DNA of 58,129 bases. It comes from Bdellovibrionota bacterium (lineage in GTDB: Bacteria; Bdellovibrionota; Bdellovibrionia; Bdellovibrionales; JAMPXM01). Shown piece by piece: positions 32,332 through 47,380 of the stretch. Where the stretch lies: NCBI GenBank assembly GCA_963170185.1, contig CAUJGS010000081.1:1-58129 (forward strand), read 5' to 3'. Position 1 is the stretch's first letter. Each line of letters starts with the position of its first letter. The notes under the pieces are model-generated. The model made no database searches. It was not told the origin of the DNA and worked only from the letters and a program-made list of their open reading frames with translations. Both the position numbers and the translations under genes were made by a program.

Positions 32332-33951
32332 GTGAAATCATCAGGTCTGAAACCATCAGGTTTGGCTGTCGCAATCGTCGGCGCGCTCACATCCTTGCTT
32401 GCTGCTCAAGCGGTATCCGCATCGACATTCGTCTACTGCTCAGAGGGAAGCCCTCGTACCTTCAACCCGCAGATGGGTTCCGACGGTCCGACGTTCAACG
32501 CAAGTTCGCGCACGATCTATAACCGCCTCGTCGATTTCGAAAAGGGCGGAACCAAAGTGTTGCCGTCGCTTGCCGAGTCTTGGACGACGTCGAAAGATAA
32601 ACTGCAAATCACTTTTAAACTTCGTAAAGGTGTTCCGTTTCATACGACATCGTTCTTTAAGCCGACTCGTTCGTTCAATGCGGATGACGTCGTTTTCACT
32701 TTTGGTCGCATGATGAAGAAAGATCATCCATTCCATACCGTAAATGGCGGCGTGTACGAGTACTTCACTTCGATGGAGATGGACAAACTCGTAAAAGAAG
32801 TGAAGAAGGTCGATGACCACACGGTCACGTTTGTTCTTACGCGCCCTGAGACACCCTTCATCGCCAATATGGCAATGGATTTCGCGTCGATCCTTTCGGC
32901 GGAGTATGGTGATCAGCTGCAAAAGGCGAAAACTCTTGAAAAGATCGATCTCGAACCTGTCGGTACGGGACCGTTTAAATTTGTTCGCTACGAAAAAGAC
33001 TCGCAGATCCGTTTTGAGGCCCACGAAGGATACTTTGAGGGCAAGCCAAAAATCGAGCGCCTGATCTTTGCGATCACAACTGATCCAAGTGTTCGCACGC
33101 AGAAACTGAAACGTGGCGAATGTCAATTCGTGGCCGAGCCATCGGTGCTCGATATCCCTTCCATTAAAAAAGAAATGAAGCTTTCGGTTATCGAACAAGA
33201 GGGCCTCAATGTTGGCTATCTCGCATTGAATGTCGAAAAGAAACCGCTTGGTGATCGCCGTGTTCGTGAGGCGATTGCGAAAGCTCTGAACCGAAAAACG
33301 TACCTCGATGCGATTTATCAGGGGCAAGCGACAGTTGCGGTGAATCCGATTCCGCCAGCGATGTGGTCTTACAATAAATCGATCAAAGACATCGACTTCG
33401 ATATAGCTGGTGCCAAGAAGCTCTTGGCCGATGCTGGATTCCCGAACGGGTTTGAAACAACGCTTTGGTATATGCCGGTTTCTCGTCCGTACAATCCCAA
33501 TGCGAAGAAGATGGCGGAGATGATGCAGGCTGATCTCGCGACCATCGGAATCAAAGCGAAGCTCGTTTCTTACGAGTGGGGAACCTATCTGGACAAGGCA
33601 CGCAAAGGTGAACACGACATGCTTCTCATCGGTTGGACGGGCGACAATGGCGACCCTGACAACTTCTTGGGAACACTTCTTGGCTGTGCCGCGATCAAAG
33701 GTGGTTCGAACTACGCGCGTTGGTGCAATAAAGAATTCGACAAACTCGTGACGGATGCGCGCCAGGCTCCCGATCAAGCGACACGCACTCAGCTTTACAT
33801 GAAGGCGCAGGAAGTCTTTAAGAAAGAACTTCCTTGGGTGACTCTCGCACATGCCAAAGCTTTTCGTGCGATGGAAAAACGCGTGAAAGGTTATTCGATG
33901 TCGCCATTTGGTACGGACTACTTCGGCAGCGTTGTTGTCGAGAAGAAGTGA
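32332..33951 (+). CDS. dppA: Dipeptide ABC transporter, periplasmic substrate-binding protein
   Basis: 539 residues from GTG 32332 (RBS GAGGAG). A signal peptide ends near VSAS; the mature start, STFVYCSEGSPRTFNPQ, resembles DppA. It belongs to extracellular solute-binding family 5 (e.g. VGTGPFKFVRYEKDSQIRF and ADAGFPNGFETTLWY). No lipobox is seen, so a soluble periplasmic protein is expected. It is the first gene of an operon with two permeases and two ATPases. Confidence 0.93.
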   Translation: MKSSGLKPSGLAVAIVGALTSLLAAQAVSASTFVYCSEGSPRTFNPQMGSDGPTFNASSRTIYNRLVDFEKGGTKVLPSLAESWTTSKDKLQITFKLRKGVPFHTTSFFKPTRSFNADDVVFTFGRMMKKDHPFHTVNGGVYEYFTSMEMDKLVKEVKKVDDHTVTFVLTRPETPFIANMAMDFASILSAEYGDQLQKAKTLEKIDLEPVGTGPFKFVRYEKDSQIRFEAHEGYFEGKPKIERLIFAITTDPSVRTQKLKRGECQFVAEPSVLDIPSIKKEMKLSVIEQEGLNVGYLALNVEKKPLGDRRVREAIAKALNRKTYLDAIYQGQATVAVNPIPPAMWSYNKSIKDIDFDIAGAKKLLADAGFPNGFETTLWYMPVSRPYNPNAKKMAEMMQADLATIGIKAKLVSYEWGTYLDKARKGEHDMLLIGWTGDNGDPDNFLGTLLGCAAIKGGSNYARWCNKEFDKLVTDARQAPDQATRTQLYMKAQEVFKKELPWVTLAHAKAFRAMEKRVKGYSMSPFGTDYFGSVVVEKK

Positions 33952-33960
33952 TAGCGACGG

Positions 33961-34980
33961 ATGTCACGGGCCTTTAAGTTTGGACAGATTGCGACAACGC
34001 TGTTTGGAATCACGCTTGTCGCGTTTTTTCTGATTCGTCTTGTGCCAGGCGATCCCGTGACTTTGCTGATCGGAGAACGTGGGGCTTCGCCAGAAGCTAT
34101 CGCAGAGTTAAAAGCCCGCATCGGGCTTGATCGTCCCCTTGTCGAACAATACGGCCTCTTTGTTTGGAATGCTCTCAAAGGGGACTTAGGTGTCTCGATT
34201 CTTTCAGGCCGTTCGGTCGGAGCGGAATTCCTAGAGCGGCTTGCCGCGACTGCGGAGCTTGGCTTGACGGCCCTGATGCTTGCAACTCTCGTCGGCGTGC
34301 CTCTCGGGATTTTTGCGGCTCTTCATCGCGGTCGACTCTTTGATCGTCTTTCGATGGGGCTTGCAGTCAGTTTCTATTCGATGCCGATTTTTTGGTGGGG
34401 CCTCATGGCCATTGTAATCTTCAGTGTGAAGCTTGCGTGGTTGCCGGTCTCTGGCCGCATCGGCGTTGAACACGACGTGATTTTGAAGTCCGGACTTTTG
34501 CTCGTGGACTCGTGGTTGATGCCCGGCAGTCTTGCGGAATCATGGGCCGCTTTTAAGAGTGTGATCCACCATCTGCTTTTGCCGGCCAGCGTTTTGGCGA
34601 CGGTACCCCTGGCTGTGATTGCGCGTATGACGCGTTCAAGTCTGCTCGAAGTTTTGGGTGAAGACTACGTGCGCACGGCTCGCGCCAAAGGGCTTTCGAG
34701 ATTTCGCGTGGTGGCTCTGCATGCTTTACGAAACGCCTTGATTCCCGTGGTGACAGTGATCGGTCTTATGCTTGGAACGATTCTAACCGGAGCGATTTTG
34801 ACCGAGACGATTTTCTCGTGGCCAGGCCTTGGCCGCTGGTTGGTGTCGGCCGTGCTTTCGCGTGACTACCCGGTCATTCAAGGTGGAATCCTTATGGTGG
34901 CTGTTGTGGTGCTGACAACAAGCTTGCTTGTCGAGATTTTCTACTACTTCATCTCGCCAAGGTCTCGGGGGCGTGGATGA
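33961..34980 (+). CDS. dppB: Dipeptide ABC transporter, permease 1
   Basis: 339 residues with about six membrane segments. The N-terminus (FLIRLVPGDPV, with the ELKARIGLDRPLVEQY loop) is typical of DppB/OppB, and the EAA loop (RTARAKGLSRFRVVALHALRNALIPVV) contacts the ATPases. It starts 9 bp after dppA and overlaps dppC by 4 bp. Confidence 0.95.
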   Translation: MSRAFKFGQIATTLFGITLVAFFLIRLVPGDPVTLLIGERGASPEAIAELKARIGLDRPLVEQYGLFVWNALKGDLGVSILSGRSVGAEFLERLAATAELGLTALMLATLVGVPLGIFAALHRGRLFDRLSMGLAVSFYSMPIFWWGLMAIVIFSVKLAWLPVSGRIGVEHDVILKSGLLLVDSWLMPGSLAESWAAFKSVIHHLLLPASVLATVPLAVIARMTRSSLLEVLGEDYVRTARAKGLSRFRVVALHALRNALIPVVTVIGLMLGTILTGAILTETIFSWPGLGRWLVSAVLSRDYPVIQGGILMVAVVVLTTSLLVEIFYYFISPRSRGRG

Positions 34981-35855
34981 GAGTGACTCAGGAGGCCTTG
35001 CGTTCAATCCGTCGCAATCTCGGTGGTCCACTTATCATTGTGGCGATGGCTCTGCTCGGCTTGACCACTTTCTTTGCGATCTTCGCTCCGTTGATTGCGC
35101 CCTATGATCCGGCGCGAACTTTCGAGGGAGCATACTCGCTTCCGCCGTTTTTCTTAGAGGGCTGGGATTCGCGATTTCTTTTGGGGACAGACGATGTCGG
35201 GCGCGATCTTTTTTCACGCCTGATACACGGCGCGCGCATTTCTCTTCTGGCTGGTTTTGCCGTGACAGTTTTGAGTCTTACGATCGGTGTCGTGTTGGGA
35301 GCTCTTGCCGGTTGGAAGGGTGGTTTCATTGAAGCCGCGATCTTGCGCCTGATGGACACGATGATGGCTCTTCCTAGTATCTTGCTCGCGATTGTTGTGG
35401 TCACGATCCTGGGTCCAAGTCTCGTGAACGCTGTCATCGCGGCGGCAGTGACGGCTGTGCCGGGAGTTGTCCGCTTGGTGCGTGCGACCATCCGCGAAGA
35501 GAAGGCTAAGCCTTACTCGCTTTCTGCAAAACTCTATGGTGCCGGTGGTTTTCGAATCGTGACGGTCGAGCTTCTGCCAAACTCGCTAGCGCCGATTTTT
35601 GTTCAGGGAACGATGGGTTTTGGAGAAGGCATTCTCAACGTGGCCGCACTTGGTTTTTTGGGCTTAGGAGCAAGGCCGCCCATGGCGGAGTGGGGCACGA
35701 TGCTCGCGGATTCTCGTGCCTACGTCGAAAGTCAGCCATGGCTGGTAACGGCACCAGGTCTTTGCATCTTGATCGTGATCTTGTCGTTCAATCTTCTAGG
35801 TGATCACTTGCGCGACGTTTTTGATCCGAAGCTTAAAACTCGCGAGGAGGCCTGA
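34977..35855 (+). CDS. dppC: Dipeptide ABC transporter, permease 2
   Basis: 292 residues with about six membrane segments. Family features include the N-terminal APYDPARTF stretch, the HLLGTDDVGRDLFSR-type motif (here FLLGTDDVGRDLFSR), and the EAA loop with a LLPNSLAPIFVQ segment. Its start overlaps the dppB stop (ATGA), and its stop overlaps the dppD start by one base. Confidence 0.95.
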   Translation: MRVTQEALRSIRRNLGGPLIIVAMALLGLTTFFAIFAPLIAPYDPARTFEGAYSLPPFFLEGWDSRFLLGTDDVGRDLFSRLIHGARISLLAGFAVTVLSLTIGVVLGALAGWKGGFIEAAILRLMDTMMALPSILLAIVVVTILGPSLVNAVIAAAVTAVPGVVRLVRATIREEKAKPYSLSAKLYGAGGFRIVTVELLPNSLAPIFVQGTMGFGEGILNVAALGFLGLGARPPMAEWGTMLADSRAYVESQPWLVTAPGLCILIVILSFNLLGDHLRDVFDPKLKTREEA

Positions 35856-36832
35856 TGCTTGATGACCGAATGCTTGATATTCGGGGCCTTACATTGGATA
35901 TCCACGGTGCCCGTCCTTTGCGCGAGATCGACCTGGTTTTGAAAAAAGGCAAATCGCTTGGAGTCGTGGGCGAATCGGGATCCGGCAAATCTCTGACAGC
36001 ACTTTCGATAATGGGACTTTTGCCGAACGGGGCTGTGGCTCAAGGCCAAGCCCTATGGAAAGGCCGCGACCTTCTTGCGCTCACGGAAGATCAATATCGC
36101 ACGATTCGTGGTCGCGAGATCGCCATGATCTTTCAAGACCCGATGTCGAGTTTGAATCCATCGTTCACGGTCGGTTTTCAGATCGACGAGGTTTTAAAAA
36201 TCAAGATGGGTATTCGCAATGCGGCCGAACGCCGCGCGCGTGGATTGTCGCTCTTAAAAGAGGTTGGAATTCCGGCTCCCGAAGAGCGTTGGAATTCTTA
36301 TCCGCATCAGATGTCGGGTGGAATGAGTCAGCGTGTCTCCATTGCGATGGCGCTCGCAAGCGAGCCAGAGCTTCTTATCGCCGATGAACCGACAACGGCC
36401 TTGGACGTAACGGTTCAAGCACAAATTCTTGAACTCTTAAGGCGTCTGATTCACGAGCGGCATATGTCGATGATCTTCGTCACTCACGATTTGGCGGTAG
36501 CGGCCAAGGTCTGCGACGAAATTGCCGTTTTTTATGCAGGCGTCGCCGTGGAACAAGGGCCTTCGGAAATGGTTTTTGAAACCCCTCGTCACCCCTATAC
36601 GCAAGCGCTGCTTCGGGCCCGACCGACCAAGATCCAAGCCTCATCAGAAGGCAGGCGCCCACGTTTGGCGGCGATCCCGGGAAGCGTTCCGCGCTCGACC
36701 GAGCAAATTGCCGGTTGCGTGTTTGCCTCTCGCTGCGAGAAAGTGATGGAGTCGTGCTTTACGAAGAGGCCACCTGTTGCAGAGGGGGCAAATTCTCGAA
36801 AGTCACGGTGTTTGCTACAAGGAGATCAGTGA
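35855..36832 (+). CDS. dppD: Dipeptide ABC transporter, ATPase 1
   Basis: 325 residues. Walker A (GESGSGKS), the signature (MSGGMSQRV), Walker B (LLIADEPTTALD) and the switch His (THDLAVA) are all present. A C-terminal oligopeptide-type domain follows, with Cys residues (GCVFASRCEK) of the kind that bind an iron-sulfur cluster in some Dpp/Opp ATPases. The stop overlaps the start of the following coiled-coil gene (TGATG). Confidence 0.95.
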   Translation: MLDDRMLDIRGLTLDIHGARPLREIDLVLKKGKSLGVVGESGSGKSLTALSIMGLLPNGAVAQGQALWKGRDLLALTEDQYRTIRGREIAMIFQDPMSSLNPSFTVGFQIDEVLKIKMGIRNAAERRARGLSLLKEVGIPAPEERWNSYPHQMSGGMSQRVSIAMALASEPELLIADEPTTALDVTVQAQILELLRRLIHERHMSMIFVTHDLAVAAKVCDEIAVFYAGVAVEQGPSEMVFETPRHPYTQALLRARPTKIQASSEGRRPRLAAIPGSVPRSTEQIAGCVFASRCEKVMESCFTKRPPVAEGANSRKSRCLLQGDQ

Positions 36833-37296
36833 TGATGAAGTCTGATAAAAGAATCGATTGGACGATGGCAATTGGTGTCGCGATTCTGCTTTTACTTGCG
36901 GGACTCACGGTCAAAGCCGATGCCGCAAAGTCCGCTAGTGCCGATAAAGTGAAGAAAGAAACCGTGGAAGCGGTTGAAGCGGCGGGCGCTTATGCTGGCG
37001 AAAAACGCGAGGAGTTCGCCAAGCGTATGAAGACCAATATCGAAGAAGTGAATCGCGAGATCGAAACACTTAAGAACGACACGAAGACGGCCTCTAAAGA
37101 AGCCAAAGCGGCCGCGGAAGCACGGATCGCGAAACTCGAAAAACAACGCGATGATCTCGTGAAGAAGTACGAAACTTTTGAAAAGTCGACCGACAAAGCA
37201 TGGACAAAAATGAAGTCGGGCCTCGAAAAAGCTTGGGGTGAAGTGAAGTCAGCGTACACCGACGCGAAGTCGGAACTCAAATCCGCGACCAAGTGA
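36832..37296 (+). CDS. Small membrane-anchored coiled-coil protein
   Basis: 154 residues from ATG 36832, with RBS AAGGAG and a one-base overlap with dppD. One hydrophobic segment (about 12-28) is a signal or anchor; the remainder is Lys/Glu/Ala-rich and almost wholly helical, reading as a long coiled coil (TNIEEVNREIETLKND, AEARIAKLEKQRDDL). No family recognised. Its position between the two transporter ATPase genes is unusual. It could brace or regulate the transporter or link it to the envelope; this is inference only. Confidence 0.8.
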   Translation: MMKSDKRIDWTMAIGVAILLLLAGLTVKADAAKSASADKVKKETVEAVEAAGAYAGEKREEFAKRMKTNIEEVNREIETLKNDTKTASKEAKAAAEARIAKLEKQRDDLVKKYETFEKSTDKAWTKMKSGLEKAWGEVKSAYTDAKSELKSATK

Positions 37297-37324
37297 TCAC
37301 GAAGTAACTACAGTCTGGCGGCAA

Positions 37325-38281
37325 GTGGACGGCGTTATCCTATCTGCATCTGATCTTCAAAAATCCTACGCTGGCGGCGGTGCGGGTCGGTTTGTCCATG
37401 CTGTTCGCGAGATTTCACTCGAGGTGAAGCGCGGGGAAACGCTGGCGATCGTGGGTGAGAGCGGTTGTGGAAAGTCCACTCTGGCTCGTCTTCTTGTGGG
37501 GCTCGAAGCGCCCGACATGGGCGCCATTCAAAACCACTCGGGAGCAAGTATCCCGATGGTTTTTCAAGATTCACTGGGTTCGTTGAACCCGCGTCGTGCA
37601 GTTCGTGATCTCATTGTCGAGCCGATTTTGATTCGCGAGAAACGAATTCGTTCAACGCCTACCGATCACGCGGTCGCACGTGATCTGGCGATTTCGGCAG
37701 GATTGCAGGATGAACATCTGACTCGGCTGCCGCATCAGCTTTCTGGTGGGCAACGACAACGTGTGAATATCGCAAGGGCTCTGGCTGCGGATGCCAAGGT
37801 CCTGGTTTTGGACGAGCCGCTTTCGGCATTGGATGTTTCGATTCAAGCACAGATCTTGAATCTCTTGGTTGATCTCCAGGAGTCTCGAAAGATCTCGATT
37901 GTTTTCATCTCGCATGACCTTTCTGTGGTTCGCTATTTCGCACACCGAACAATGGTCCTTTATTTGGGCCGAGTGGTTGAGTCCGGGAAGACCGACGAGA
38001 TCATGGCTCGGCCCTTACACCCGTATACCCAGGCACTTTTGGCCGCAGACCCTTCGGTGGCTGATTCGGTGGCTGGTTCGGTATCTGTCGCGGAGGGAGC
38101 GTCGGGGCAGTCTCCGCGACTTCAAGGGGAGCCACCATCGCCCTACGAGATTCAACCCGGCTGTGCCTTTGCGAGCCGGTGCTCGATAGCCGATGCGGGC
38201 TGCCAGAAGGCGATTCCGCCCCTTCAGAATTTTCAAAATCGGGCCATAGCTTGTTTCAAGGCCGATCGCACTTTAGGTTAG
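37325..38281 (+). CDS. dppF: Dipeptide ABC transporter, ATPase 2
   Basis: 318 residues from GTG 37325. Walker A (GESGCGKST), signature (LSGGQRQRV), Walker B (VLVLDEPLSALD) and the switch His (SHDLSV) are intact. The C-terminal Cys motif is GCAFASRCSIADAGC. It completes a standard DppABCDF set, split by the coiled-coil gene. Only 5 bp separate it from aroB. Confidence 0.95.
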   Translation: MDGVILSASDLQKSYAGGGAGRFVHAVREISLEVKRGETLAIVGESGCGKSTLARLLVGLEAPDMGAIQNHSGASIPMVFQDSLGSLNPRRAVRDLIVEPILIREKRIRSTPTDHAVARDLAISAGLQDEHLTRLPHQLSGGQRQRVNIARALAADAKVLVLDEPLSALDVSIQAQILNLLVDLQESRKISIVFISHDLSVVRYFAHRTMVLYLGRVVESGKTDEIMARPLHPYTQALLAADPSVADSVAGSVSVAEGASGQSPRLQGEPPSPYEIQPGCAFASRCSIADAGCQKAIPPLQNFQNRAIACFKADRTLG

Positions 38282-38286
38282 GCGCC

Positions 38287-39378
38287 ATGGAAACCATCCA
38301 GCTTTATTTGGATCGTCTGCCTCGTGCTCGAAAACCTGATTTCGATCCCGAAACGACGATCGTGATTTTCGACCGCAAGCTGATGACGGCGGTGCCTGGT
38401 TTTAAACCTTGGGTCACGGCGTTTCCATATCGTTTCCCGGTGCGTTCGGGCGAAGGGCTTAAGTCTTTTAGCTCCTTTCAACAGACTTTGACGAAGATCC
38501 ATAAAAAAGTCGGAGACAAGGCCGGCCCGAAGTGGACAGTTCTCGCCATCGGCGGCGGCAGCGTCGGGGACTTTGCCGGATTCTTTGCCTCGGTTTACAA
38601 GCGGGGACTTCGACTCGTGCACATGCCGACGACGTGGCTCGCGGCCATCGATTCGAGTCATGGTGGAAAGACGGGCCTTAACTTTGGTGGCGCAAAAAAC
38701 CAGATCGGCACGTTCTATCCGTCGGAGATGACGGTGATGGTGAAGTCGATTCTTCTGAGTCTTCCTCGAAAACAAGTTTTGGACGCGTTTGGTGAGTTGA
38801 TCAAAATCGCGGTGATCGACGGCGGTTCGTGGGCGAAGCGCCTTCGGCTTGGTCGCGGTACGAATGGATCACGCGCGGTCAGAAGCACGGCACTCTTGCT
38901 TTGGAAGGCTCTGCCGTTTGCGGTTGAAGCAAAAATGAAAACCGTGCGCCGAGATCCGAAAGAAAAAACGGGTGTTCGGCAGGTGTTAAACTTAGGCCAC
39001 ACGTTTGGTCATGTGATCGAATCGGTGACGGGCCGAAGTCACGGCGAGTCGATATGGCTTGGCTTCCTTTTCGCTATCGAGTTTTCTTTGGCCGAAGGCT
39101 ATCTGAAGATGCGTGAAGCCGAACTCTTAAATGACTGGCTCAAGCTTCAAAGCGAACCTCTAAAAAGCATCAAGAAGTCACAGATCAAGATCAAAACAGC
39201 CGAGGCGCGAAAGCGCCTTCTTCAAGACAAAAAACGCACGTCCGGTTTAGGGCGAAAACAGAAGAACAACGACGAGGTTCGTTTCGTGTTTGTAAGGGGT
39301 CTTGGCAAGACGGTCGTCGAACCGGTTTCCGTAGAAAAGATTTTGAAAGTGGCCCGACAAAACGGGTGGCTCAAGTGA
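38287..39378 (+). CDS. aroB: 3-dehydroquinate synthase
   Basis: 363 residues from ATG 38287. AroB converts DAHP to 3-dehydroquinate using NAD and Zn. Motifs: GGGSVGDFAGFFASVYKRG, PTTWLAAIDSSHGGKTGLN, the metal-binding Glu in AFGELIK, and His residues in LGHTFGH and SHGES. The sequence is rather divergent from enterobacterial AroB, especially after residue 300, where it is Lys-rich. It follows dppF by 5 bp, and its stop overlaps the start of the next gene, so aroB and the shikimate fusion gene are translationally linked. Confidence 0.93.
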   Translation: METIQLYLDRLPRARKPDFDPETTIVIFDRKLMTAVPGFKPWVTAFPYRFPVRSGEGLKSFSSFQQTLTKIHKKVGDKAGPKWTVLAIGGGSVGDFAGFFASVYKRGLRLVHMPTTWLAAIDSSHGGKTGLNFGGAKNQIGTFYPSEMTVMVKSILLSLPRKQVLDAFGELIKIAVIDGGSWAKRLRLGRGTNGSRAVRSTALLLWKALPFAVEAKMKTVRRDPKEKTGVRQVLNLGHTFGHVIESVTGRSHGESIWLGFLFAIEFSLAEGYLKMREAELLNDWLKLQSEPLKSIKKSQIKIKTAEARKRLLQDKKRTSGLGRKQKNNDEVRFVFVRGLGKTVVEPVSVEKILKVARQNGWLK

Positions 39379-42300
39379 TTCGCGTTCAGCGACCGTTCTT
39401 CTTTCGCGGTCGAGTTCCGTTTTCGAAATCCTGGTTGGCGCGTGCCTTGATTCTGCGCTCTCTTCATCCACAGGTGCGAATCCTCGACTGGGAAGCGGGC
39501 CCGATTGATGGCGAAGACGTCGTTTTTTTGGACTCGGCTCTTAAGCATCTCGCTTCGGGCGGAACGGATTTCCATATTGGAGAAAGTGGTACTGGCCTTC
39601 GTTTCTTGTTGGCTAGGCTTTCCGTGCAAAAAGGCGTTTACACGATTGCAGGCAGCGAGCGTCTCTTGGCGCGGCCACACGCGGAATTGGTACGCGTCTT
39701 AGGTCAGGTAGGAGCCAAGGTTGAGCAGATCGCTCCGACAAAACTTAAACTCGAAGCGGCGGGATGGCCGAAGTTCTCGACGGCATCATCTTCGCAGTCG
39801 GAGATCCTTGTCGACGGATCGGAATCCAGTCAGTTTCGCTCGGCTCTGTTGTTGGCATCCTCGCATATTCTAGAACCAGTCGCTCGCCCTCGGATTGTCG
39901 GGAAAAACGAAGTGTCGCGCGGCTACATCGAAATGACGGAAGACTTGGTCGATCAAGTTTTGAATCGCGGTCGTCGGGTTCTGGTTCCGGAATCCGACGC
40001 AAGCTCGATTGCGACGTTGGCCGCGATCGTCAAGGCCGCCGCCCCCATGGCCTCCCATCTCAAAAATGATGAATCGGACTTCCTCAAGCAAGAGCTCGAG
40101 TCTTTGCGAGGGCAAGTTGATGGCACCAAGCAGCCAGACCGAGCATTCTTTCACTTGCATCAGTTGGAAGAGGCGGATTTGACGGATGCACCGGATCTCT
40201 TTCCGTTGCTTGCGGCGCTTGCTAGCTGTGGGTTAGGGCCTCGGATACTTAAGGGTGCTCCTCATCTTCGATTAAAAGAAACCGATCGCATTGCTGAAAT
40301 CGAAAAGCTCTTACGTCTACTTGGCGTCGAATTTGAATCACGACCAGATGGCATCGCGATCACTCCCGTTACTGCGACACAACGAGCGCAGTGGGAAAGA
40401 GGCAGACGAGAGGGCTTCGCATTCGAATACGACCCGCCGAACGATCACCGCTTGGCATTTGCTGCGACCGTGTTTGCGGCTCAAGGTGCTCCGATTCAAT
40501 TTCATGGACGTGGGATGGTCGCAAAAAGTTTTCCGACGTTCTGGTCGATCGTCGAAGGCGATGCTCCGAAGGTCGCCATCATCGGCCATCGTGGAACGGG
40601 AAAAACGGACTTGGCCAGAAGATGGGCCCACTGGCTAGGAGCGCGAGCGACAGCCGTCGACCTGGATCGTGAGATCGAACGGCTTTCCGGTAAGTCCACT
40701 CGTCAGCTTTTTGAAGAAGACGGCGAAGGCGAATTTCGCTTTTACGAGAAGAAAGCGTTTCGCGAAGCGGATGCGGAGTCGCGTTCGCGCGTCGGGGCTT
40801 TTCTTATTTCCTGTGGAGCAGGGTTCGATGTTCGCGAGCTCGACGATTCTTGGCAAAAAGTTTGGGTGCGCCGAGAGACAGACTCAGATGGCCGGATATT
40901 TTTTGGTCGACCACGTTTAGATCCAGAGCTTCATCCTCGCGAAGAGTCGCGGCGGCGCTATGAAGCGAGAACCTCTGGCTATAACGCGGTTGCGGATCGT
41001 GAGTACTGGATGCCGGAAGGCGCAAGTGATCCGGCGGAGCACCTATGGGCGAGAGACCTCTTCGACGAGGATTCCATTTCGTCCATTGGCGGCACGATCA
41101 CACTTTTGCCTAAAGGAAACTTTGTCGCGGCGATCGCGCGCTACCTGAGATGGGGCGTTGCGCGAATCGAAATTCGCGACGACTTGTTTCCACACGATTC
41201 ATACTCTCATCTATGGGAGCATCTCTTGTCGCTTCCGCCTGAGCGACTACTGATCAGTTTCCGTGCCTCGAAAGAAACGATAGCCACGATCGCGCACGTG
41301 AAGCTTCAGATGGCTCGCGCTGAGACGATATCGTTCTTGATCGATTGGTCGTTTGACGGGTCAAAGAGTGCCGATGCGCCAAGTTTCGGCGACTTGCCAA
41401 AGGACTTGAACGATTTGCTGGCCGACGCGCGCCTGGGATTCGTTGCCAGTCGCCATCTGCCTCTCGGTGCAAACGGGCTTGCAGCTTGGGAGAGTCTTGA
41501 GGCCGAACTTTCAAGATCGCGCGAGCAGCTCGGGGTGAAACATACTCCGGTGATGAAGCTTGCACTTGAGACCAAAAACTTCTCGGATCTGAGGGTCTGT
41601 CACGAGTGGATGATGAAGTCGCCATCCACGCGCATCTTTCTTCCCATGTCGCCGGCTCAAGAGCCCCATGCCCGCTGGGCCTGGTATCGGCTTTGGCGCG
41701 GCTCCGAAGTGCCGCAGGCATTAAATTTCTGGCGCGATGGCGCCGGGTCCGCCGTCGATCAACCAAGTTTCTCTAGCTGGTGGCGACGAGAGAGATTCAC
41801 GTCTCGAACGATTGACGGCGAGAAGCGCTATCCGTTTGCAGCCGTTCTCGGTGATCCGGTTCATCACTCGCTCACACCGCTTGAGCACGATCGGTTCTTC
41901 ACCGGATATGAGTTACCGGTTTTTGCCATCTCTGTAAAAAGAGAAGAGGCCGATATCGCACTTCCGCTTCTTGAAGAAATGGGGCTCAAGGCGGCCGCAC
42001 TCACATCGCCTCTGAAAGAAATTGGCGCTCGCTATTTTGCCGGGGACGCTGGTCTTTCGGCAAACCCGCAATCCCTTGCGACAGAGCCGGTGAACACGGT
42101 TGTTCGCGTGAAGTCTGGCTGGAAGGCGATTTCGACGGATGCCGCTGGGTTTGAAGCTCTTTGGAAAGAGGCCGAAGAAGTGATCCAGCAGCTCGAGCTA
42201 CCACGTGACGTGATTGTCTGGGGCGGTGGTGGCGTTTTGCCAGCACTCGACACGGTTCTCTCGCGGGTCGCCTCGGTGGGCGGACGTGTCCAGCACTTGC

Positions 42301-42551
42301 GCGCAAGCCAGCCAGTCGAGCTTAGCTGGGCGCCATCGATTGTGATTTGGGCCAGCGGTGCGCAGCGTGGAGCTTGGCCAGCGGCCTTTAAGCCGCGTCT
42401 GGTGATCGATCTTTCTTATACCGACGATTCTGAAGCACGTGCGATTGCGATTGAGGCAAAGTCTCGCTACATATCGGGGCTCACGATGTTTCGAGTTCAA
42501 GCCGAACAGCAGCGCGAGTTTTGGCTCAAGCATCTGGAAAATAGATTGTAG
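39366..42551 (+). CDS. Tetrafunctional shikimate enzyme: AroA-AroK-AroD-AroE fusion (AROM-like)
   Basis: 1061 residues (GTG 39366; GTG 39375 gives a 4-bp overlap with aroB and is equally possible). EPSP synthase, about 1-397: PFSKSWLARALIL, DGSESSQFRSA, DLTDAPDLFPLLA, LRLKETDRI, NDHRLA. Shikimate kinase, about 400-565: P-loop GHRGTGKT, DLDREIE, GEGEFRFYEKKAF, RPRLDP; the usual GGG is CGAG. Type I dehydroquinase, about 572-812: His in FVASRHLP and the Schiff-base Lys in PVMKLALE. Shikimate dehydrogenase, about 820-1061: GDPVHHSLTP, catalytic Lys in TSPLKE, STDAAGF, WGGGGVLPA. Key residues appear intact in all four. Together with AroB upstream it covers steps 2-6 of the pathway, in the order of eukaryotic AROM. 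No frameshift is apparent. Confidence 0.93.
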   Translation: MAQVIRVQRPFFFRGRVPFSKSWLARALILRSLHPQVRILDWEAGPIDGEDVVFLDSALKHLASGGTDFHIGESGTGLRFLLARLSVQKGVYTIAGSERLLARPHAELVRVLGQVGAKVEQIAPTKLKLEAAGWPKFSTASSSQSEILVDGSESSQFRSALLLASSHILEPVARPRIVGKNEVSRGYIEMTEDLVDQVLNRGRRVLVPESDASSIATLAAIVKAAAPMASHLKNDESDFLKQELESLRGQVDGTKQPDRAFFHLHQLEEADLTDAPDLFPLLAALASCGLGPRILKGAPHLRLKETDRIAEIEKLLRLLGVEFESRPDGIAITPVTATQRAQWERGRREGFAFEYDPPNDHRLAFAATVFAAQGAPIQFHGRGMVAKSFPTFWSIVEGDAPKVAIIGHRGTGKTDLARRWAHWLGARATAVDLDREIERLSGKSTRQLFEEDGEGEFRFYEKKAFREADAESRSRVGAFLISCGAGFDVRELDDSWQKVWVRRETDSDGRIFFGRPRLDPELHPREESRRRYEARTSGYNAVADREYWMPEGASDPAEHLWARDLFDEDSISSIGGTITLLPKGNFVAAIARYLRWGVARIEIRDDLFPHDSYSHLWEHLLSLPPERLLISFRASKETIATIAHVKLQMARAETISFLIDWSFDGSKSADAPSFGDLPKDLNDLLADARLGFVASRHLPLGANGLAAWESLEAELSRSREQLGVKHTPVMKLALETKNFSDLRVCHEWMMKSPSTRIFLPMSPAQEPHARWAWYRLWRGSEVPQALNFWRDGAGSAVDQPSFSSWWRRERFTSRTIDGEKRYPFAAVLGDPVHHSLTPLEHDRFFTGYELPVFAISVKREEADIALPLLEEMGLKAAALTSPLKEIGARYFAGDAGLSANPQSLATEPVNTVVRVKSGWKAISTDAAGFEALWKEAEEVIQQLELPRDVIVWGGGGVLPALDTVLSRVASVGGRVQHLRASQPVELSWAPSIVIWASGAQRGAWPAAFKPRLVIDLSYTDDSEARAIAIEAKSRYISGLTMFRVQAEQQREFWLKHLENRL

Positions 42552-42569: not shown

Positions 42570-43697
42570 ATGGCGAATGCCAATCAGACAGGTCAGATCT
42601 TTCGTGTGACCACGTTTGGCGAGAGCCACGGCCCAGCCATCGGCTGTGTGATCGACGGCTGTCCTGCGGGCATCTCGGTTTCTCTAGAGATGATTCAAGC
42701 TGCGCTCGATCGTCGTCGCCCCGGTCAAGCGGCATGGGCTTCAGCTCGTCAGGAATCCGATCAGTTCGAGATCTTATCTGGCCTTCACGAAGGAAAAACT
42801 TTGGGGACGCCGATTGCGGCGATCATTCGAAACCGAGACGCACGCTCTGCCGACTACAAAGATGTCGTCGATGGCACGAAGAAGCGCATCGGTCACGCCG
42901 ACGATCTCTGGCGTGATAAGTTTGGTCACGCAGACTTACGCGGCGGTGGTCGTGCATCTGGTCGTGAGACAGCCACGCGTGTTTTGGCAGGAGCGATTGC
43001 CGAGCAGGTCGTTCGCGCTTTGCTCCCACCTACTCAGGCCTGCGATGTAGTTGCTTACGTGTCGCGAGTCGGAGAACTTGCGCCGACAGCGAAAGAGCTC
43101 GCAGAAATCCATTCTCACTTTGTCGACTTTCCATCAGAAAAGTCATCAGAGTCCCGCAGCCTCCGAGACTTTGTCGATTCATTCGCAGCGCGCTTTCCGT
43201 CGCTCGACGCTGAAAAGTCTCTCAGCCGTCGTGCGGAAGCCATGCTCGTGGACGCGGTGAAAGAGGGAAAGAGCTACGGTGGTGTCGCGGAAGTTTTCGT
43301 CGTCAATCCACCTCGCGGTCTTGGGCAGCCTGTGTTCCACAAACTCAAAGCAGACCTCGCGGGTGCTTACTTAAGTATCGGTGCGACAAATGGCCTTGAG
43401 TTTGGAGAGGGTTTTTCTGCGACCTCTGCCGAAGGCACCGAGTTTCACAAAGCGTCTGCTTCCGAAACTCAAGACACGCGAAACACAGAAGCGCGGTACG
43501 GCGGAATACGCGGTGGTCTTTCTACAGGAGAACCCATCTTCGCACGGGTTGCGTTCAAACCGACATCCACAGTGATGGATCTAGCAAAGCGCGGTCGTCA
43601 CGATCCTTGTATTGTTCCGCGCGCCGTACCTGTACTTGAAGCCATGACCTGGCTTGTTCTCTGCGACCACGTGCTGTGGTCGCGCCTTGATCGGTAG
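42570..43697 (+). CDS. aroC: Chorismate synthase
   Basis: 375 residues (RBS AAGGAG). AroC makes chorismate from EPSP with reduced FMN. Motifs: TFGESHGPAIGCVIDGCPAG, RRRPGQ, the GGGRASGRETATRV segment with catalytic His just before it (FGHADLRGG), and the C-terminal RHDPCIVPRAVPVLEAM. It lies 18 bp after the AROM-like gene, so steps 2-7 are encoded in one run. Confidence 0.96.
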   Translation: MANANQTGQIFRVTTFGESHGPAIGCVIDGCPAGISVSLEMIQAALDRRRPGQAAWASARQESDQFEILSGLHEGKTLGTPIAAIIRNRDARSADYKDVVDGTKKRIGHADDLWRDKFGHADLRGGGRASGRETATRVLAGAIAEQVVRALLPPTQACDVVAYVSRVGELAPTAKELAEIHSHFVDFPSEKSSESRSLRDFVDSFAARFPSLDAEKSLSRRAEAMLVDAVKEGKSYGGVAEVFVVNPPRGLGQPVFHKLKADLAGAYLSIGATNGLEFGEGFSATSAEGTEFHKASASETQDTRNTEARYGGIRGGLSTGEPIFARVAFKPTSTVMDLAKRGRHDPCIVPRAVPVLEAMTWLVLCDHVLWSRLDR

Positions 43698-45719: not shown

Positions 45720-46448
45720 CTATAAAACGCGGGCTTTGTAGATGTAGGCGATGCCGAAGGTGACAGCGCGATATTCAATCGTTTGGAAACGACCAGTAGA
45801 GCGCATCAGTGCGACGAAGTCTTCACGACATGGAAATTGCGCCGACGAGTTCTGTAAGTACTCGTACGCTGATTTCTGACCTGTGAGCAGGCCGCCAATC
45901 GTGGGCAATACCTTTTCTGAATAGAGATTGTAGGCTTTCGCGATGAGATCGTGTTTGGGTTGTCCAAATTCAAGCACCATGACGTGGCCGCCTGGTTTTA
46001 CGACTCGCGCGAGTTCCGAAATACCCTTAGCAGGGTCGGAAACATTGCGAATGCCAAACGAGATGCTCGCGATATCAAACGAACTATCTTCGAATGGGAG
46101 ATTCATGACGTCAGCTTGCGAGAAGCTGACTTCAAGTCCGCGGTTTTTGGCTTTTGCTGGCGCGGGGATCAACATTTCGGCGCAGAAATCGGTACCGGTC
46201 ACTTCGCCTTTTGGCCCAACGACAGATTTAAATTCCAAAGCGAGATCGCCGGTTCCTGTCGCGCAGTCGAGAATTTTGTCGCCAGGTTTAGCGCCTGACC
46301 AGTCGACGAGGTCTTGGCGCCAGAGGTGGTGAACGCCGCCAGAAAGAACGTTGTTCGCAAGATCATAACGACCCGCGATCTGCGAAAACATCGAGCGAAC
46401 TTTTTCCGACTCGGGACGACCGGCAGTGGGGCCATTTACTTCGTTCAT
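45720..46448 (-). CDS. ubiE: Demethylmenaquinone methyltransferase
   Basis: 242 residues. UbiE/MenG methylates demethylmenaquinone as the last step of menaquinone synthesis. Motifs: MFSQIAGRYDLANNVLSGG, SAM loop LDCATGTGDLA, VTGTDFCAEML, and ISFGIRNVSDPAKG. Its start overlaps the aroF stop by 4 bp. The final menaquinone step is thus transcribed with the first shikimate step, divergent from the men cluster. Confidence 0.95.
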   Translation of the reverse strand: MNEVNGPTAGRPESEKVRSMFSQIAGRYDLANNVLSGGVHHLWRQDLVDWSGAKPGDKILDCATGTGDLALEFKSVVGPKGEVTGTDFCAEMLIPAPAKAKNRGLEVSFSQADVMNLPFEDSSFDIASISFGIRNVSDPAKGISELARVVKPGGHVMVLEFGQPKHDLIAKAYNLYSEKVLPTIGGLLTGQKSAYEYLQNSSAQFPCREDFVALMRSTGRFQTIEYRAVTFGIAYIYKARVL

Positions 46449-47380
46449 GTGAGCTTCACTCCGCTAGTGGGTGCATTGGCCAGAGTTTTCGATGTGAACC
46501 CGGAAAAAGAATCCGTCGTGATCAACGGACGGCCGACAGCGTTTGCAACGGCTTCTACGCGCTCGCAGAGATCGGCGAAGTCTTCAAAGCTCAAGGCTTG
46601 GAAGGCATCCGAAAGCGCTTTGTCTGGAACCGGGTGAACTTCGCAGATGAGGCCATCCGCACCAGCCGCGATTCCCGCAAGGGCCATCGGCAGGACAAGT
46701 TCGCGGCGACCAGTGCCGTGCGAAGGATCAACGACAACCGCAAAGTCGGTGTGAGCCTTGATCCAAGCCACGGCATTGAGATCCAGCGTGTTGCGGGTTG
46801 CTGTTTCAAATGTGCGAATGCCGCGTTCGCAGAGAACGACTTGGTCGTTTCCGCCTTTTACGACGTACTCCGCAGCGTGAATCCATTCGTCGATCGTCGC
46901 GGCGAATGCGCGTTTCAGCATGACCGGGCGATCAAGACGTCCGAGTTCTTTTAAGAGTTCGTAGTTGTACATGTTGCGCGAGCCGACCTGAAACATATCG
47001 ACGCTCTCAAGCATCAGGTCGATCTGGCGCGGGTCCGTGATTTCACAAACCATCGGAAGTTTGGCGTCGGTCTTTACCTGACCGAGAAATTCGAACGCTG
47101 GCGTTCCGATGCCTTGGAAACTATTGGGGCTCGTGCGCATTTTGAAAACGCCACCGCGAAGCATAGCTGCGCCGCTGTTTTTTACAGCGTCCGCTGTTTC
47201 GCGAAGGTGTGTTTCGCTTTCGATCGAACAAGGGCCGGCGATCATGACGATCCCTTGGCCGCCGATTACGAGTTCCGGGAGACCAGGCGCAGAAGAGGTG
47301 CCGCCCCCACAGCGAACGCGAACCTGCTTGGTGCGAGGTGAAAAGCGGTCAGAGGCAGTTTTGTTCGGTTCAAAGGTCAT
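46445..47380 (-). CDS. aroF: 3-deoxy-D-arabino-heptulosonate 7-phosphate (DAHP) synthase, type I-beta
   Basis: 311 residues. Condenses erythrose-4-phosphate and PEP, the first shikimate step. Motifs: [57 protein letters not shown] and [13 protein letters not shown], as in the KDOPS-like I-beta enzymes. A short N-terminal extension (about 35 residues) shows no obvious ACT or chorismate mutase domain. With aroB, the AROM-like gene and aroC, every chorismate step is present in this window. Confidence 0.93.

Follow-up and report, generated by a model that had tools for sequence, protein, structure and literature searches.

The window, by which we mean the whole stretch of 58,129 nucleotides analysed here, belongs to a genome within the Bdellovibrionales, whose named relatives include Bdellovibrio bacteriovorus. 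It contains an intact open reading frame of 1061 codons, aroAKDE, which begins with GTG, has no internal stop codon, and encodes in order from the N- to the C-terminus an EPSP synthase (A), a shikimate kinase (K), a type I dehydroquinase (D), and a shikimate dehydrogenase (E) domain (Table 1). The gene lies in an operon between aroB and aroC. The fusion GTG at 39366 precedes the aroB TGA at 39376–39378, giving an overlap of 13 bp, and the ATG at 38287 agrees with the homologues as the aroB start better than does the GTG at 38179 of the mechanical list of open reading frames. A previous sequence-only reading had described a single 1061-residue protein with this domain order, catalytic residues in each domain, and a separate aroB whose stop overlaps the fusion start, and had likened the locus to eukaryotic AROM split at one joint. 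The domain order is borne out by the open reading frame, Pfam, residue mapping, and structure modelling, the catalytic residues by alignment to the Escherichia coli enzymes, the separate aroB by the overlap, and the comparison with AROM by the gene order together with the separate aroB. Promoter and terminator scans across the operon gave results at chance level. Upstream, oligopeptide ABC transporter genes (32332–38281, plus strand) run in the same direction, with a stop 5 bp before aroB, and the ATPase gene of this transporter precedes aroB in several close relatives too.

Table 1. Features of the shikimate operon and its surroundings (window positions).
Feature	Position	Strand	Basis or remark
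aroB, 3-dehydroquinate synthase, 363 aa	38287..39378	+	DHQ_synthase 3e-29, DHQS_C 2e-22
aroAKDE, tetrafunctional shikimate protein (functions predicted), 1061 aa	39366..42551	+	single ORF; same architecture in congeners and other lineages
AroA (EPSP synthase) domain, residues 1-398	39366..40559	+	Pfam PF00275 6e-30
AroK (shikimate kinase) domain, residues 399-566	40560..41063	+	Pfam PF01202 3e-10
AroD (type I 3-dehydroquinate dehydratase) domain, residues 567-812, highly diverged	41064..41801	+	residue alignment and model
AroE (shikimate dehydrogenase) domain, residues 818-1061	41817..42548	+	TIGR00507 3e-10, sub-cut-off
aroC, chorismate synthase, next operon gene	42570..43697	+	Pfam PF01264 2e-102
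DAHP synthase, pathway step 1	46445..47380	-	PRK08673 1e-113, TIGR01361 6e-101, both over cut-off
MenF-MenD fusion, 997 aa	47570-50563	+	isochorismate-synthase-like domain; MenD TIGR00173 2e-83, over cut-off

The fusion protein passes only two Pfam cut-offs, those of EPSP_synthase (residues 48–394) and SKI (residues 409–488), and none of the NCBIfam cut-offs. Shikimate_dh_N matches residues 827–886 below threshold (0.0015), and aroA, shikimate kinase, and aroE are all recognised by NCBIfam below their cut-offs. Identity to the E. coli enzymes is 29% for A, 24% for K, 18–19% for D, 20% for E, and 29% for B. In AroA, residues K21, S22, R26, R103, S155, Q156, D277, K304, E305, R308, H361, R362, and K387 align with active-site residues of the E. 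coli enzyme; in AroK, the P-loop GHRGTGKT, D432/D434, R458, G484/G486, and R535 are conserved; and in AroE, S835, T880, K884, N910, D925, and Q1045 align with S14, T61, K65, N86, D102, and Q244 of E. coli. The metal ligands of the separate AroB (E170, H238, H252), as well as K128 and K137, match those of E. coli AroB. The best structural matches of the full-length model were EPSPS structures (Z 32); as the search returned mostly EPSPS chains it is uninformative as to whether the domains are arranged as in AROM, and the pTM of 0.62 is too low for judging interdomain contacts.

Pfam gave no match over the stretch between the kinase and the dehydrogenase. The D domain was established there by mapping its residues, by a structure model, and by a profile that weakly matched dehydroquinases of known structure. 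Residues E602, R604, R633, H697, K731, R775, S795, and Q799 align with E. coli AroD E46, R48, R82, H143, K170, R213, S232, and Q236, respectively. Among the D sequences of 57 relatives, E602, R604, H697, K731, R775, and Q799 are invariant and R633 is kept in at least 90%; E86 of E. coli AroD is not kept across the family, and the window has E637. A profile of these 57 sequences matched the solved dehydroquinases weakly (2ocz, 1e-4). In the AlphaFold2 model of D (pLDDT 87), helices alternate with eight strands, and type I dehydroquinases occupied ranks 1–17 of a Foldseek search with this model and ranks 1–38 with VIA-align (Z 12.7–14.8). By its modelled fold, D is a type I dehydroquinase (beta/alpha)8 barrel. 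PF01487 has no match in the window and is reached by only 3 of the 57 D members at E up to 0.01 (best 0.0021), and routine annotation therefore misses the enzyme. The assignment fills a hole, as the Bdellovibrionales were without recognised dehydroquinases, and for that reason similarity-based annotation and auxotrophy surveys may wrongly call these bacteria unable to make chorismate. In a large survey that used identity thresholds of 30–40%, amino acid auxotrophies were found to be widespread in soil Bdellovibrionaceae (PMC10665431); judged by sequence, enzymes as diverged as AroAKDE may have been missed at those thresholds.

In the window's own genome, which is 95.7% complete, SKI and Shikimate_dh_N match the fusion open reading frame only. 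PF00275 matches the fusion and, strongly and over its full length, one protein on another contig, and this second EPSPS-family protein is most likely MurA, which relatives have too. A profile search of the genome found no AroQ and no Pfam-recognised type I AroD. Because the copies are single and neither AroQ nor a Pfam-recognised AroD was found, the fusion would perform steps 3 to 6 if the cell makes chorismate. The genome also has a second match to the DAHP synthase family, on contig C104.

Matches to the K, D, and E domains of the AroKDE family, mostly in one full-length frame, are present in 97 of the 107 genomes of the class that are at least 90% complete (our own count), and B. bacteriovorus has AroKDE. 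The usual arrangement is aroB, aroA, and aroKDE with overlapping frames and aroC downstream; aroC homologues occur at most of the relatives' loci and lie directly 3' of AroKDE or AroAKDE where read (for example, L002, L031, L033). The window conforms to this pattern, with K-D-E in one chain in an aroB-aroA-aroKDE-aroC setting. Outside the class, most genomes of the phylum lack AroKDE, and five of those sampled have it (G133, G151, G166, G169, G173). Two of the five, G151 and G166 (L053, L072), fall within the Bdellovibrionales on the KDE tree, a placement suggestive of transfer or misassignment. The four-domain AroAKDE is carried by five genomes of the window's genus, in one of which a contig end truncates it, and by G012, G078, G107, L071, and G169, and it occupies at least two separate places in the KDE tree, that is, at least two changes. 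Of the two fusions, AroKDE is the old and conserved one, to which a few lineages later added AroA to give the tetrafunctional form. Beside its AroAKDE, genome G004 has a second, standalone aroA with aroC and an aroB remnant (L209, C21:9000-15000), which may stem from a contaminating contig or represent an old copy.

We think it very probable that the locus is the chorismate operon of the Bdellovibrionales, in which AroAKDE does four steps, was built stepwise, and came most likely by convergence to the order of AROM. In this pathway AroB would supply dehydroquinate, D would dehydrate it, E would reduce the resulting dehydroshikimate, K would phosphorylate shikimate, and A would add enolpyruvate to the product of K, so that AroC could form chorismate after steps 3 to 6 on AroAKDE. 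The analysis establishes the domain identities, the single copies, and the operon, whereas the activities of the enzyme and its dimerisation through D are predictions, and the fusion may also channel intermediates. The assembly would have started from an operon of aroB, aroA, and other genes, passed through an order-wide AroKDE fusion in which a type I dehydroquinase substituted for AroQ, and ended in several lineages with AroA joining AroKDE, at a place where the genes of unfused relatives abut or overlap.

Downstream of the operon, DAHP synthase and UbiE/MenG (45.7–47.4 kb, minus strand) are followed by the MenF-MenD fusion and then by MenH, MenB, MenA, MenC, and an AMP-binding (MenE-like) gene, onward to 57.1 kb. 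The shikimate operon thus has a nearly complete menaquinone cluster and DAHP synthase no more than 15 kb away. In G003 and G004 a DAHP synthase gene likewise lies close to the fusion, and in G007 close to AroKDE. The MenF-MenD fusion resembles the plant PHYLLO fusion. The adjacent cluster hints at what the shikimate pathway offers a group that feeds on prey, the provision of chorismate for menaquinone being a likely reason for its retention.

The domain order of AROM is DHQS-EPSPS-SK-DHQD-SD (PMC6851490), and the order B-A-K-D-E of the locus is the same. AROM is a homodimer held together through its DHQS and DHQase domains and has five activities. What the two have in common is a fused A-K-D-E with a type I dehydroquinase, B adjoining it in the window, and the bacterial fusion resembles AROM in its order and probably also in what it does. 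Whereas AROM carries all five domains in one polypeptide, aroB of the window is a separate, overlapping gene, and no B-A fusion was seen among the relatives' loci examined. Unlike AROM, moreover, the window fusion has almost no A-K linker and occurs in Bdellovibrionota, and its domains have no special sequence kinship with those of AROM. An identical order that does not follow the pathway, expected once in 120 if all orders were equally likely, could point to a shared ancestor, with AROM derived from such a B-A-K-D-E operon or partial fusion, or the reverse. AROM domains are, however, much closer to ordinary bacterial enzymes. With AROM sequences taken from PDB alignments (a yeast Aro1 sequence was used solely as a search query), identities of AROM to E. 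coli and to the window, respectively, are 42–43% versus 27–28% for A, 36–39% versus 25–28% for B, and 27–29% versus 19–22% for E, and the AROM EPSPS is 44% identical to those of Klebsiella and Sulfurovum whereas no stretch from Bdellovibrionota exceeds 35% identity to it. In the AroA, AroB, and AroE trees AROM falls with ordinary bacterial enzymes and is parted from the Bdellovibrionales, to which the branch is long, by well-supported (starred) branches, and the concatenation agrees. The approximately unbiased (AU) tests did not reject a clade of AROM and Bdellovibrionales, with p values of 0.051 for AroA (0.20 without one long row), 0.084 for AroB, 0.111 for AroE, and 0.067 for the concatenation. 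Because the A, B, and E trees group AROM with ordinary bacterial enzymes, convergence appears the most likely source of the AROM-like order, and we regard a shared ancestor as unlikely; a Bdellovibrionales B-A-K-D-E that is a bacterial relative of the arrangement from which AROM arose, its domains diverged past easy recognition, is just as doubtful. The sequence-only reading, which had wavered between an ancestor-like and a convergent form and proposed domain trees as the check, is thus favoured in its second half, while the first loses ground to the identities and to the A, B, and E trees that part the two groups, even if the AU tests leave the joint clade unrejected. The apparently independent replay of the domain order of AROM raises the question of what favours that order.

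One might also suppose that one or more domains, most plausibly D, are catalytically dead scaffolds and that another enzyme does that step, given that D is so little like E. coli AroD (18–19% identity) and invisible to Pfam in most members. The DHQase domain of Candida albicans Aro1 offers a precedent, being inactive, with a substituted site and a type II enzyme present (PMC9074039), so that a fused D is not in itself proof of activity. Candida species with a dead Aro1 dehydroquinase have the type II enzyme Dqd1, and C. glabrata and C. parapsilosis, in which the domain is active, do not (PMC9074039). In contrast to C. albicans Aro1, the window D keeps its site, and no type II enzyme was found in the window genome; furthermore, all 57 sequences share the Schiff-base lysine, the histidine, and most of the residues that bind substrate, and AroKDE genomes have neither AroQ nor a canonical AroD. 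In a scan of 66 genomes of the phylum, the type II enzyme AroQ was present in none of the 35 with AroKDE and in 23 of the 31 without it (Fisher p 2e-11), an exclusion that follows the same logic as the Candida pattern. Within family f15, the AroKDE genomes G151, G166, and G169 lack AroQ, and G123, G154, G157, G178, and G182, which have no AroKDE, possess it. The remaining 8 of the 31 genomes lack both, some of them not being clearly pathway-less. A dead D domain would thus be quite improbable. Five near-complete genomes of the same class (G016, G021, G117–G119) gave no AroKDE profile match and no AroQ, and may have lost the shikimate pathway.

At the A-K junction the window protein reads ...KSFPTFWSIVEG-D-APKVAIIGHRGTGKT (AroA end WSIVEG), with one residue between the profile ends. 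At five relatives' loci (L022, L043, L053, L056, L006) A and KDE are in register, separated by the stop codon of A plus at most a few codons, and other relatives, B. bacteriovorus among them, have the two overlapping in different frames. Judging from these sequences, one substitution or small indel would suffice for the fusion of A and KDE, and the steps of assembly are still visible among relatives, from overlapping genes through a single in-frame stop to the fusion. Apparent AroAKDE proteins in L006 and L022 were rejected for an in-frame stop between A and KDE, as was a long open frame in G007, where A sits in another frame. A false join of separate genes in assembly or sequencing, as might be suspected of carriers that are mostly metagenome-assembled genomes when A and KDE are separate genes in many relatives, can be dismissed, since the same-frame, near-linkerless joint is conserved in several genomes of diverged sequence, with G004 at 54% identity to the window fusion over residues 1–1057, and one carrier (L048/G078) sits on a 3.26 Mb contig. 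Sequencing error, against which the sequence-only reading had cautioned, is excluded because congeners and other lineages share the four-domain open reading frame (G001, G003, G004, G012, G078, and others).

We conclude that this is a real, multi-lineage bacterial protein, tetrafunctional as predicted from its sequence, built upon an order-wide trifunctional one. The shikimate fusions described from prokaryotes are bifunctional exceptions, according to the systematic search of Logotheti and Hartmann (PMC10792529), whereas in the Bdellovibrionales three domains are fused throughout the order and four in the lineage of the window. The closest known bacterial fusions of the pathway have two domains and other orders, namely DHQD-SK of Clostridia (PMC10792529), AroL-AroB of Herbaspirillum (PMC7311316), and DHQase-shikimate dehydrogenase (NCBIfam PRK09310). 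Plant DHD-SDH has D followed by E in one chain, as here, and its structure aligns with the D model at Z 14.3, but unlike the window fusion it is without a kinase or EPSPS domain. We found no description of AroKDE, of a bacterial AROM, or of any bacterial tri- or tetrafunctional form in the open-licence literature. A whole bacterial order would thus possess a trifunctional enzyme, and some of its lineages a tetrafunctional one, where bifunctional exceptions had previously been described. In families f15 and f18, which belong to other classes of the phylum, a different fusion of about 480–500 aa, with AroE followed by AroK in one frame, was observed (L197, L198, L203, L204), adjoining aroA and, where read, aroB.
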